DNA from: Gemmatimonadota bacterium
Lineage (GTDB): Bacteria; Gemmatimonadota; Gemmatimonadetes; Longimicrobiales; Gaopeijiaceae
DNA: 36,889 nt
Reading direction: 5' to 3'
Assembly: GCA_003248075.1 (NCBI GenBank)
Contig: QJYK01000293.1
Coordinates: 1 to 36,889 of the forward strand
Below, one piece after another: positions 5,589 through 10,560 of this stretch. The stretch's first letter is position 1; each line of letters begins with the position of its first letter. Below the pieces are notes generated by a model, which saw nothing but the letters and a program-made list of their open reading frames with translations, searched no databases and was not told the DNA's origin. A program made the position numbers and the translations under genes.

Positions 5589-5683
5589 GTCCGGATGGCC
5601 GAGGGGTGCGCCGGAACCTCGGAGGGCGGCTTGTGCCGCATCGCTGCGGGCGATCATGCGCGACCTGAGCGCCGCAGGTGGGA

Positions 5684-6994
5684 ATGCGTGACTTGAGGGG
5701 CTCGCCATCCCGGGACGTCGGCCCGTTCGTCCGGTTCTACGCGCCGTTGGCGGCCACCAGCCTCCTCCTGACGTCGACCAACCCCCTGCTGGCCGCCGCC
5801 CTCGCCCGCACCAGCGACCCCGCGGTCGCGCTCTCCGGATATGGAGTGGCGTTCGCGCTCACTGGCGTTATGTACGCGCCGCTGCTCGTCTTTCAGCAGG
5901 TCGCCGCCGCCCGACTTCTTGCCGCGGGTGACCTGGCGTCGGTGCGTCGGTTCTCGGTGCTCGTGGGTCTCGTCTTCTCCGCGCTCGCCGCGGCGGTCGC
6001 ATTCACGCCGATGGGGGAGTGGGTCTTCGAGACGGTCGTGGGCGTGCGGGACGCGATCCTCGACGAGGCGCTCGAGGCCATGGTGTTCCTGTGGCCCGTT
6101 CCCCTTCTCACCGGCGTGCGGGCCTTGCACCAGGGGCGGCTGGTGGCGGGGCATCGCACGCAACCGATCGCGTCAGCCACGGCGTTGCGGACCGCCGTCT
6201 TGGCTATGGTGGCGTTCGCGCTGACCTCGACCCGTGGTGGCGCGTGGGTCGGTGCGGTGGCTTTCACCGTGGGCCTGTTCCTCGAAGTGACCGTCGTGGC
6301 CCTGGCGCATGCGCCGCTTCCCCGGAGGCCCGAGGCGACCGAGCTCGAGAGCCCGGGCGAGGACCGTCTGCTGTCCACGTCCTGGCCCCTGATGTTGAAC
6401 GTCCTCCTCTGGTGGTCGACCCCTTTGGTCATCAACTCGGTCCTGGCACGCACCCCCGAGCCGGACTGCTCCATAGCGGCATTCACGGTCGTCGAGGCGG
6501 TCGCCTGGTTCCTCACCGCACCCGTGGGCCAGATGCAGCATGCGTCGCTCGCGCTGGTCGACTCGCGGTCCGCGCACGCGCGCGTGAGGATCTTCGGCGC
6601 GACGCTCGCCGGCGTCGTTACGGTGATGCTGGCGATCCTGGCGCTGCCGTCTCTGCGCGAGTTCGTCCTGTGGACAGGCTTTCGGCTCGCTCCATCACTC
6701 CTCGAGCCTGCCGGGCTCGCCTTCCCGGTGGCCGCGCTCTATCCCATCCTCTATGGTCACCGTCAGTACCATCAGGGGCTCTTCGTGCGCGTAGGTCGAC
6801 CCGGGCTGGTGGGCACAGGCGCCGTGTTGCGCATGACGCTCATCCTGGCCGCAGCGCCCCTCCTGCTCGCTCCCATGGGTCGCAACGGCGCCCGTCTGGG
6901 CGTGACGCTCGCAGTCATCGGGCTCCTCGGTGAAGCGGTCTTTCTGGAGGTCGCGTGCCGGAGACAGGCCATCCCGCGCCTGCCCGCAGGCTGA
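5684..6994 (+). CDS. ANKH-like MOP-superfamily membrane transporter
   Basis: The protein has 436 residues and about twelve hydrophobic segments, with few charged residues in the membrane. Several stretches run parallel to vertebrate ANKH (progressive ankylosis protein, an exporter linked to ATP/pyrophosphate and citrate release), as I recall its sequence. These are the opening V-R-F-Y-A-P-L, S-G-Y-G-V-A-F-A-L, S-W-P-L-M-L (second half), A-P-V-G-Q-M, and near the C-terminus L-R-M-T-L-I-L followed by G-A-R-L-G-V and L-G-E-A-V-F-L. The fold is that of the MATE/MOP flippase superfamily. ATG 5684 is chosen for its AGGTGGGA ribosome site; an in-frame GTG lies two codons upstream. It stands alone, 122 bases after the oxidase operon and convergent with the next gene. 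The substrate is unknown. Confidence 0.78.
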   Translation: MRDLRGSPSRDVGPFVRFYAPLAATSLLLTSTNPLLAAALARTSDPAVALSGYGVAFALTGVMYAPLLVFQQVAAARLLAAGDLASVRRFSVLVGLVFSALAAAVAFTPMGEWVFETVVGVRDAILDEALEAMVFLWPVPLLTGVRALHQGRLVAGHRTQPIASATALRTAVLAMVAFALTSTRGGAWVGAVAFTVGLFLEVTVVALAHAPLPRRPEATELESPGEDRLLSTSWPLMLNVLLWWSTPLVINSVLARTPEPDCSIAAFTVVEAVAWFLTAPVGQMQHASLALVDSRSAHARVRIFGATLAGVVTVMLAILALPSLREFVLWTGFRLAPSLLEPAGLAFPVAALYPILYGHRQYHQGLFVRVGRPGLVGTGAVLRMTLILAAAPLLLAPMGRNGARLGVTLAVIGLLGEAVFLEVACRRQAIPRLPAG

Positions 6995-7032: not shown

Positions 7033-10000
7033 CTACCGCCAGACGTCGAAGTCGCCGCCGAGGATCCTGTCCACTCGTCCGGTGCGCCAGCCAGCCACGC
7101 TGTCCCGAACCAGCGGCGACGGCAGCTCTCTGTAGCGCCGGACAACCTTCGACGCCCCGGCCCCCAGCGCCTGGCGCGCCGCTTCCAGCTGCTCGCTCTT
7201 CGGCGCGCTCGGGGCCACGGTCTGCGGCGCGACCGAAACACGGACGCGGACCCGCTCGAAGCCTCCTCCGTCTTCCTTCGGGCTCTCGAAGACGTGCAGT
7301 CCCGCCTCACGCGTGAGGATCGCGAAGCTCCCGAAGCCGGCGACGGAGTAGACGGCGCCGTCGGCGGGGTCGACACGCCGGGGCGTGAGCTGGGCCCAGT
7401 GCATCCGACGGCGCGACGCCCACGCCGCGTACATCTCCTCGACGCGGGCCAGGAAGTCCCCGGCCTCCGGATGATCGAGGTCTTCGCGCACCAAGCGAAC
7501 CCCCAGGAACGCCATGCCAGGGCGGGCGAGGTCGAGGTCCGCCAGCCCGGCCTCCAACACGTAGAGCTTCTCCGCCACGCGTCTCGCGAGCGCGGCGCCC
7601 CGCGTGCTCCGGTCCATGCGCTCCGCCAGTGAACCGAGCGTCCCGGCAGCCGCCTGGATGCGGTCCATGAGCTCGACACGGTCCAGCACCTCGTAGCGGT
7701 CAGCGCGATCCCAGAATCCGTCCCGGTTGATCTCTGCCAGCGCGGCCGCCATGAGGCCTTCCCACTCGTCACTCTCCACGCGGGCGCGGATCTCGCCCAC
7801 GCGCCGGGCGAGAAAGACCTTTTCGGCGTCCTCCCCCGTGGCCTCCAGCACCAAGCCGGCGACCGAAATGGGCTCCGCCACGGCCTCCTCGGTCTGTTCG
7901 GCCGGCGGCCCGGATTCGGCGTCGGGATCCACGAACTCGACCTGGAGCCCCTCGCCGTCGCTGCGCGCGAACAGGAACTGCTCCCCTTCCGGCGCCCGGT
8001 TCTCGACGATGGTGACGGAAAGAGGTGCGAGCAGGTGGCTCTCGATCGCGCGACGCAGAGGCCTGGCGCCGAGATCGGGCGTGAAACCTTTGGACAGAAG
8101 GAACTCGATCGCCGAGTCCTCCCACTCGACGGCCCACGCCTTGCTTTGGAGTCCTCGGCGATTGAGCGCGTCGTCCAGCTCCTTGCGCAGGATGCGGCGC
8201 ATGATGTCACGACTCAGCGGCTTGAATACGACCACCTTGTCGAGCCGGTTGACGAACTCGGGCCGGAAGGTGCGGTCCACGGCCCGCATCACCTCGCGGG
8301 CGTAGAACTCTCCGGCTGCGCCGACGAACCCGACGCCCGCCTCCTTCCGGATGGTGGCGCCCAGGTTCGAGGTCAGGATTATGATGGCGTGTCGGAAGTC
8401 GGCGAGGTTGCCGGACCGGTCCGTGAGACGCCCGTCGTCGAACACCTGCAGGAACAGGTCCCATACGTTCTGATGTGCCTTCTCGAACTCGTCGAGAAGC
8501 ACGACGGAAAAGGGGCGCTCACGAATGCGCTGCACCAGCGACGCCGATGCTCCGGCCCTGTGGTCGTCGTCCGGGCCACCGAGCAGCCGAGGCAAGGAGT
8601 CGGGCGTCTGGAACTCGCTCATGTCCAGGCGAATCATCTGCTCGGCAGAGCCGAAGAGCAGCTCCGCCAGGGTCTTGGCGATCTCCGTCTTGCCCGTTCC
8701 GGTGGGCCCGGCGAAGAGATATACGCCGATGGGACGCTTCGGATCGGTCAGGCCTGCCTTGAGCATGGCGATGCGCTCTACGAGACAGTCCACCGCCTCG
8801 TCCTGACCGATCACGTGACTGTGGAACTGGGCGCGAAGCCCCTCGACGTCGAGCCGCTGCCGCTCGTCGAGGACCTCTCTCGGCAGCCCCGTGAGCTCGC
8901 TGAGCCCGCCCAGAAGGTGCGTGCGATCGATCGGCTCGGGCACGTCTCCGGTGCCCGCCCTGGCGAGGGCGAGCTCGAGGAGCCCCATCGCGCTCCCGGG
9001 CAGGGCACGGTGCGCGAGGTAGGTCCGAGCAAGCTGCAGCGCCTCGCGTACGACACTTTCGCGAGCCGCCTCCTCGACGCGCGGCTGTACCAGTGACACG
9101 AGCGCCCCGCCGAGATCCACCGCCTCGTCTTCGCCCAAAGGCGAGACGCGGATCACCTTCATCATGACCGGTATGCCATGATACGCGCGTTCGAGGGCCT
9201 GGTAGGCACCGGGCGCGATCTCGGACACGAGCAGGAGCTCCCGTGACTTCACGAACGGCCAGATGAGATCGAACACGCCGACGGGGTGCTGCATCGTGCG
9301 TCCCGCGGTGGTCAGCTCTGCAAGCCCTTCCACGAAGAGGGCGACCCGCTTGGACACGCACGCGTTCCGGCGCAGCTGGTCCACGCGGGTCTCGATGTCG
9401 CCCACGTACCGCGTCCCTGCCAGCATCTCGGAGCCGGAAGTCTGAAACACGCGCCACCCCTGGTCCGCCAGGTCCTTCGAGAATGCCCGGATGAGGGCGG
9501 TCTTGCCGACGCCGGGCTCGCCGACGAGCAGGAGCGAGCGGGGCGGGCTCTCGAGGAACGCGTCGCGCATCGAGGCCAGATGCCCGGCGACCTGGCGGGT
9601 CTCGAAGACGGCAGCACCGGGAATCGGCTCCGTCCAGAGCCGTCCCGCGCTTCCCACGAACTCGGGATCCAGCATCGTCTCACGATGACGCGCGATCTCG
9701 GCGAGAAGGGGGGCGCCGTAGCGCGTATCGAGCCGCTGCACGAATGCCTCGATCCCGTCCAGACTGTCGGCTGTCAGGTCGTCCAGGACGCGGCCCATGG
9801 CTACGGCTTCACCTGCGGCGGCGCGTTGCCCGATGAACTCCTCGACGGCAGCCACCGTAACGGGCTCCCGACCCCACCAGCCCTTGACGTCGGCGAGCAC
9901 TGGCCCGATGACGGGTCGGTTCGCGTGAGTCGCCAGGAACCGGAGGCGGAAGAAGAGTGGCCACTGCGCCCACTGTCCGATGTTCGCCAGCACACGCTCC

Positions 10001-10368
10001 ACGGCTGGCTGGGCGTCCGATCTTCTCGCCAGGGCCTCCGACGCCATGATCCCCACCACCCAGTGCGTCCCCAGCGCGTAGCCGACTACCTGGTCCAGGG
10101 TCACGTCGGGGGCGATCAGCCTGGCGACACCCTCCTCGAACTTCTCGTTACCGACGATGTCGTGCGGATCGGGCATGCTGCCGGCTTCGTTTTCTTCGAG
10201 ATCATCGCCGATCCGCAACAGCGCCTGGCCCAGCGACTCCCGGTCCTTGCCGGACCGCTCCCCGTCGGGTCGCGGGGTTCGAGCGACAGACGGCCGCCGG
10301 CCTCGCCAGTGCGCGACCGAATAGCCGATCCAGACGCCGAGGGTGATCCAGGCGATGATCTCCAGCAC
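7033..10368 (-). CDS. Membrane-tethered ClpA/B/C-like AAA+ ATPase fused to a GGQ-less RF2-like domain
   Basis: The protein has about 1111 residues. Residues 1-21 form a single transmembrane helix followed by basic residues, so the body should be cytoplasmic. Residues about 70-245 are helical and unrecognised. AAA+ D1 (about 255-475) has Walker A G283-T290 and a pore-loop Tyr321, but Walker B reads F-V-E-G where Clp proteins have F-I-D-E, and the arginine fingers are absent. D2 (about 510-790) has Walker A G554-T561, Walker B D626-E627, sensor-1 N668, R708 in F-R-P-E-F-V-N-R and sensor-2 G-A-R 767-769, but lacks the G-Y-V-G pore loop. Residues about 840-1111 resemble release factor 2: F-W-D near 885, a PCRF-like domain about 950-1050 and an RF2-type tail, with no GGQ segment. 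GTG 10368 has GAGGTG upstream; an alternative TTG lies four codons earlier. Confidence 0.9.
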   Translation of the reverse strand: MLEIIAWITLGVWIGYSVAHWRGRRPSVARTPRPDGERSGKDRESLGQALLRIGDDLEENEAGSMPDPHDIVGNEKFEEGVARLIAPDVTLDQVVGYALGTHWVVGIMASEALARRSDAQPAVERVLANIGQWAQWPLFFRLRFLATHANRPVIGPVLADVKGWWGREPVTVAAVEEFIGQRAAAGEAVAMGRVLDDLTADSLDGIEAFVQRLDTRYGAPLLAEIARHRETMLDPEFVGSAGRLWTEPIPGAAVFETRQVAGHLASMRDAFLESPPRSLLLVGEPGVGKTALIRAFSKDLADQGWRVFQTSGSEMLAGTRYVGDIETRVDQLRRNACVSKRVALFVEGLAELTTAGRTMQHPVGVFDLIWPFVKSRELLLVSEIAPGAYQALERAYHGIPVMMKVIRVSPLGEDEAVDLGGALVSLVQPRVEEAARESVVREALQLARTYLAHRALPGSAMGLLELALARAGTGDVPEPIDRTHLLGGLSELTGLPREVLDERQRLDVEGLRAQFHSHVIGQDEAVDCLVERIAMLKAGLTDPKRPIGVYLFAGPTGTGKTEIAKTLAELLFGSAEQMIRLDMSEFQTPDSLPRLLGGPDDDHRAGASASLVQRIRERPFSVVLLDEFEKAHQNVWDLFLQVFDDGRLTDRSGNLADFRHAIIILTSNLGATIRKEAGVGFVGAAGEFYAREVMRAVDRTFRPEFVNRLDKVVVFKPLSRDIMRRILRKELDDALNRRGLQSKAWAVEWEDSAIEFLLSKGFTPDLGARPLRRAIESHLLAPLSVTIVENRAPEGEQFLFARSDGEGLQVEFVDPDAESGPPAEQTEEAVAEPISVAGLVLEATGEDAEKVFLARRVGEIRARVESDEWEGLMAAALAEINRDGFWDRADRYEVLDRVELMDRIQAAAGTLGSLAERMDRSTRGAALARRVAEKLYVLEAGLADLDLARPGMAFLGVRLVREDLDHPEAGDFLARVEEMYAAWASRRRMHWAQLTPRRVDPADGAVYSVAGFGSFAILTREAGLHVFESPKEDGGGFERVRVRVSVAPQTVAPSAPKSEQLEAARQALGAGASKVVRRYRELPSPLVRDSVAGWRTGRVDRILGGDFDVWR

Positions 10369-10560
10369 GTCACACCTCAATGAAGCGAGGGGAGATCGAC
10401 CTCGGGCTCGTTCACGGACGGATCACGGGCGAAGCGCGCATGGGAGGGGTATATCGGCCATCACGGACGTGAGTCAAGGCATGGCTGTGGGAGGGGCGGG
10501 GGTCGTGGACTGGTCGAACGTGGCCGAGACTACCCATCTTGCGCGGACCGTCCTACGCCG

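Follow-up and report, generated by a model that had tools for sequence, protein, structure and literature searches.

Release factor 2 (RF2, encoded by prfB) reads stop codons and docks through its Gly-rich loop, SPF and RRHT residues, and it cuts the peptide at its GGQ site. Two described systems serve as precedents for the locus considered here. PrfB3, an RF2 relative, protects an mRNA 3' end (PMC5897788), and the clade of Vms1, which works with the AAA+ ATPase Cdc48, retains a conserved Q in its catalytic loop (PMC6514570). We analyzed a gene in a 36,889-nucleotide stretch of DNA (the window) from a Gemmatimonadota bacterium (contig QJYK01000293.1), in which an earlier reading of the letters alone, the original prediction, had seen a Clp-like AAA+ ATPase fused to an RF2-like C terminus. 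Pfam, the PCRF and prfB matches of homologues and an AlphaFold model bear this out: the protein is a ClpC/ClpA-type two-ring AAA+ ATPase with an RF2-descended C-terminal module, one of 20 family members found. The prediction knew of no described system of this architecture, and we found no published description of a Clp-RF2 fusion, nor anything else relevant, in the open-access literature searched; Clp is unmentioned in a 2019 release-factor survey (PMC6514570).

An RF2-derived module on a two-ring ATPase

The C-terminal approximately 267 residues are an RF2-derived module, and this identity is secure. By sequence, the window's C-terminal 291 residues alone gave marginal matches to PF03462 PCRF (expect value, E, 0.0046, under the Pfam cut-off) and prfB (E 0.003), so that the identity claim needed homologues. 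Five homologues of the same architecture matched PCRF with E from 7e-10 to 9e-25, all over the cut-off, and the module of the Chloroflexota member L015 matched prfB across positions 3-353 of 353 (E 3.8e-50), with GGQ missing. The prfB score of 170.9 bits is well over the 67.6 bits of prfA, indicating that the source of the module is RF2 and not RF1. Run against 395 genomes, a profile of the family's C termini picked up ordinary RF2 in almost every one, at about 1e-20 in the best. Comparison of profiles and of structures with RF2, both proposed with the original prediction, gave concordant results. In hhalign alignments against 33 RF2s, the family reached 99.9% and the window's clade 98.4%. The model that AlphaFold built of the window's C terminus from five sequences (predicted local distance difference test, pLDDT, 83.7; predicted template modelling score, pTM, 0.77) had E. 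coli RF2 (1gqe) as its nearest structure (Z 19.1, 260 residues aligned, root-mean-square deviation 4.7, 17% identity), and release factors extended as far as rank 46 by Z in the Foldseek and VIA-align rankings. A phmmer search of the same region against the PDB matched de novo TIM barrels alone, which we judged to be chance. The PCRF domain and the overall RF2 fold are present, with homology across domains 1, 2 and 4, in keeping with the predicted RF2 layout of FWD start, PCRF core and tail.

The minus-strand open reading frame (7033-10380) codes for 1115 residues, in which Pfam reports AAA (residues 283-360), AAA_2 (549-715) and ClpB_D2-small (722-801). Its features are as follows, D1 and D2 being the two ATPase domains.

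7036..10380, minus strand: whole gene, Clp-type ATPase plus C-terminal RF2-derived module, 1115 residues (full-length AlphaFold model nearest ClpC/ClpB)
10312..10368, minus strand: predicted N-terminal membrane anchor, residues 5-23 (hydropathy)
9655..10233, minus strand: all-helical N-terminal region, about residues 50-242 (model, modest confidence)
9499..9522, minus strand: D1 Walker A GEPGVGKT, intact (alignment)
9391..9423, minus strand: D1 pore loop LAGTRYVGDIE, aromatic retained in the window's clade (alignment)
9313..9345, minus strand: D1 Walker B, degenerate VALFVEGLAEL, gone from every member (alignment)
8686..8709, minus strand: D2 Walker A GPTGTGKT, intact (alignment)
8545..8583, minus strand: D2 pore-loop site, LGGPDDDHRAGAS in place of GYVG, gone from every member (alignment)
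8473..8505, minus strand: D2 Walker B VVLLDEFEKAH, intact (alignment)
8326..8334, minus strand: VGF tripeptide past sensor 1, at the position of the ClpC VGF / ClpX IGF ClpP-docking loop (alignment)
7978..8217, minus strand: D2 small domain with sensor 2 GAR (PF10431, E 3.8e-15)
7531..7833, minus strand: RF2 domain-1-like helices including the FWDRADR start (alignment, AlphaFold model, hhalign)
7294..7467, minus strand: PCRF-like core, residues 972-1029 (PF03462)
7147..7224, minus strand: linker of about 26 residues at the position of RF2's GGQ domain (alignment)
7036..7146, minus strand: RF2-like C-terminal tail KVVRRYRELPSPLVRDSV...GGDFD (RF2: RSYV...VKDxRT...GxxD) (alignment, structure)

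GGQ occurs in none of the 20 members, and in 13 members' genomes PF00472 was silent on the fusion gene, matching separate release-factor genes only. The loss of the GGQ segment noted in the original prediction is therefore a family trait: the window has about 26 residues where RF2 has about 100, and this domain-3 segment is long in Chloroflexota and shorter in Myxococcota. A sequencing deletion, which a GGQ in close homologues would have indicated, is ruled out, as no homologue carries one; in L082, the alignment puts the string "GGQ" (SGGGQPSDAF) on the PCRF loop GAGGTEAQDW and not on the catalytic loop. The stop-codon tripeptide SPF is likewise gone from every member. Its proposed pairing with SPK stands insofar as the two are co-linear, but SPK itself is unconserved, with VPR, IPK and VPE in relatives. 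From established knowledge of RF2, the absence of GGQ and SPF implies neither stop-codon reading nor peptidyl-tRNA hydrolysis by the known chemistry. Separate GGQ release factors are also carried by all 13 of the 13 members' genomes checked, the window's own having a normal RF1, a normal RF2 and an ArfB-like gene, and so the fusion does not replace them. Of 98 RF2-invariant positions, 27% are retained in the window's clade and 38% in the Chloroflexota clade. Those kept are FW, Y/W, G, E.G.H, R.Y, D and G, which in the window's clade we judge to be mostly structural; the Gly-rich loop, SPF, RRHT and GGQ are gone from the family. Because these contact residues are missing, docking in the ribosomal A site, as originally proposed, is partly weakened and uncertain.

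In the ATPase part, D2 keeps Walker A, Walker B, sensor 1, the Arg finger and sensor 2 in 19 of 19 aligned members. The acidic pair of D1 Walker B is gone in the same 19, so the family does not present two active ATPase rings, and the aromatic D2 pore loop GYVG is also absent from all of them; the twentieth member, L129, shows the same in the parts that were read, D1 Walker B and D2. The original suggestion that the ATPase acts on a stalled complex is conjectural, and these two losses make it doubtful that a stalled chain would be threaded in the ordinary way. A [VILW]GF motif lies at the ClpP-loop position of ClpC/ClpX in all members (VGF in the window) and suggests that the family may be a ClpP partner. 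The window's own genome has two ClpP genes, a ClpC-like protein with GF and a ClpB-like protein without it. Its second ClpP gene lies at G000:C25:3771-4217 (L097), besides the canonical gene on C298. The full-length AlphaFold model was nearest ClpC in MecA/ClpC/ClpP complexes, at lower confidence (pLDDT 67.9). The predicted anchor is common to the window, L012 and L091 (hydropathy 1.73, 2.77 and 2.53, respectively). Among the members compared, it and the helical region that follows are absent from the Chloroflexota and Myxococcota clades, and the helical region had zero Pfam matches.

A related two-domain ATPase without the RF2 module (L014:6890-9097) has also lost the D2 pore loop and D1 Walker B; its C-terminal region of approximately 130 residues is different from the RF2 module.

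Distribution, origin and genomic context

The original prediction suggested looking for other Clp-like/PCRF fusions. The 20 members came out of a single scan of GTDB contigs together with profile searches that covered about 1,800 genomes. Three of them (the window, G011 and G411) belong to the window's own phylum, eight to that of L015 (Chloroflexota), six to that of L016 (Myxococcales) and two to that of L013 (Bacteroidetes); the remaining one is L012. The separate genome searches returned 2/395, 8/301, 6/284, 2/296 and 1/297, indicating that the family is rare and scattered. Many members come from metagenome bins; the cultured organism Herpetosiphon aurantiacus has one on its complete chromosome (PMC3368417), and the open reading frames are intact in all members found. 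A tree separates the RF2 modules from RF1 and RF2 as a single clade (support 100/99). The D2 tree also groups the fusion ATPases, but L014 and L031, which have long branches and no RF2 module, join them weakly (83/100), leaving a single origin of the ATPase part unproven. The fusion is old and probably of single origin; it is likely, although not proven, that it arose once and then spread both vertically and horizontally.

Selection was measured across six Herpetosiphon-type genomes, since sequences in the window's clade are too far apart. There the ratio of nonsynonymous to synonymous substitution rates was 0.016 in the ATPase, 0.055 in the RF2-like part and 0.077 in the domain-3 remnant. These low values show strong purifying selection, by which the RF2 module is maintained in Herpetosiphon-type genomes. 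Among plasmids, no record covered 80% of the whole protein, and the matches were partial and Clp-like; the L015 C terminus gave RF2-like matches, several of them annotated prfB.

A conserved operon partner was ruled out, as none recurs across phyla, and so was a known defence system, since the PADLOC matches concern the AAA parts only. Genomes of the Herpetosiphon type have the fusion gene closely flanked by a phosphoribosyltransferase gene and an aspartate/ornithine carbamoyltransferase gene (L084:6787-11337, L087:7016-11733), as if it had been inserted in a pyrimidine operon. In the window, a MATE-like transporter open reading frame (5678-6994; Pfam match ANKH, E 7.9e-12) is convergent with the fusion gene.

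Proposed mechanism and rival explanations

The reading that we favour, with a probability of roughly 0.38, is an ATP-switched Clp machine in which a dead RF2 serves as the recognition arm, with a translation complex as the likeliest target. D1 would bind ATP without hydrolysis, and D2 would be the working ATPase. Because D2 lacks the aromatic grip, its ring would act as an ATP-driven switch or remodeller rather than as a standard threader, and it might cap ClpP through the kept [VILW]GF loop. The arm would bring the ATPase to something that RF2 or its partners touch, such as a vacant or stalled ribosome or a release or rescue factor, which is the least certain step, and ATP hydrolysis would then free or remove that target. 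Members of the window's clade would hold this machine at the inner membrane by a tether. It is doubtful, and at most a tentative extension, that the protein is a single-chain bacterial counterpart of Vms1-Cdc48, in which the dead arm brings the Clp ATPase to ribosomes that are stalled or idle, and the ATPase remodels or clears these independently of stop codons and peptidyl-tRNA hydrolysis, membrane-tethered in one clade.

Several observations weigh against the favoured reading. Every RF2 residue class contacting the decoding centre is missing from the family; in most members, the module has a net charge of about zero or below, with no RNA-binder signature; and no neighbouring gene that is conserved connects the fusion with translation or clpP. 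The C-terminal arms would lie near the ClpP-facing side of the ring and might crowd ClpP docking. A partner protein with no role in translation would explain the data nearly as well. Full exaptation is a real possibility, if short of even odds: the module would bind a protein partner or substrate or aid ring assembly and have no role at the ribosome, and the ATPase would act as a specialised Clp remodeller, or cap a protease, with an adaptor derived from RF2. It would account for the loss of the decoding-centre contacts and catalytic domain with retention of mainly structural-looking residues, and for the patchy distribution and lack of translation-linked neighbours. It sits less easily with the retention of domains 1, 2 and 4, all in an RF2-like arrangement, and with the switch-loop W-G and tail that Chloroflexota members retain. 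We give translation targeting modest odds over it.

The missing SPF and GGQ also have a parallel in PrfB3, an RF2 turned to RNA protection, from which one might propose that the module is an RNA-binding domain and that the ATPase regulates its binding or remodels a ribonucleoprotein; no ATPase is described for PrfB3 (PMC5897788), and given the module's charge we consider this improbable. Release-factor families without the catalytic glutamine, archaeal-type factors in bacteria, have been proposed as non-catalytic A-site inserts (PMC6514570). By that precedent, and with GGQ missing from all members found, the module could fill the A site of an idle ribosome in hibernation or dissociation, with D2 ATP hydrolysis ejecting it or splitting the subunits, but the A-site contact residues are gone and there is no conserved neighbour whatsoever, which makes such a factor quite improbable. 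Decay of the C-terminal region into a fossil, or an error of assembly, might be argued from the stepwise shrinkage of domain 3 between clades and the many metagenome bins. The purifying selection in six Herpetosiphon-type genomes refutes this for the Chloroflexota clade, and since frames are open in all members and the complete H. aurantiacus chromosome carries the gene, this explanation is very improbable for the family.

A conserved family in which a catalytically dead release factor is joined to a Clp ATPase suggests either that a release-factor mimic may direct an AAA+ machine to translation complexes in bacteria or that RF2 can become a protein adaptor. Either would, to our knowledge, be a first among bacteria, and since H. 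aurantiacus is cultured, its copy of the gene makes the function testable.

Comparison with known systems

The family resembles RF2 (prfB) in its homologous domains 1, 2 and 4, with FW start, PCRF core and RSY...KD tail, and differs in lacking the GGQ domain, SPF, RRHT and the Gly-rich loop, in being fused to an ATPase and in standing beside normal release factors. With ClpC/ClpA it shares the D1-D2 layout, the D2 catalytic residues and the [VILW]GF loop, whereas it has no detected Clp_N domain, D1 Walker B or D2 GYVG and adds the RF2 module C-terminally. PrfB3 of land-plant chloroplasts, which also lacks SPF and GGQ, is the nearest functional precedent for such an RF2, although it stabilises petB mRNA and has no described ATPase (PMC5897788). 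For the pairing of a release-factor-like protein with an AAA+ ATPase, the nearest precedent is Vms1-Cdc48 of eukaryotic ribosome quality control (PMC6514570), in which the release-factor fold is unrelated (aeRF1 type) and the two partners are separate chains.
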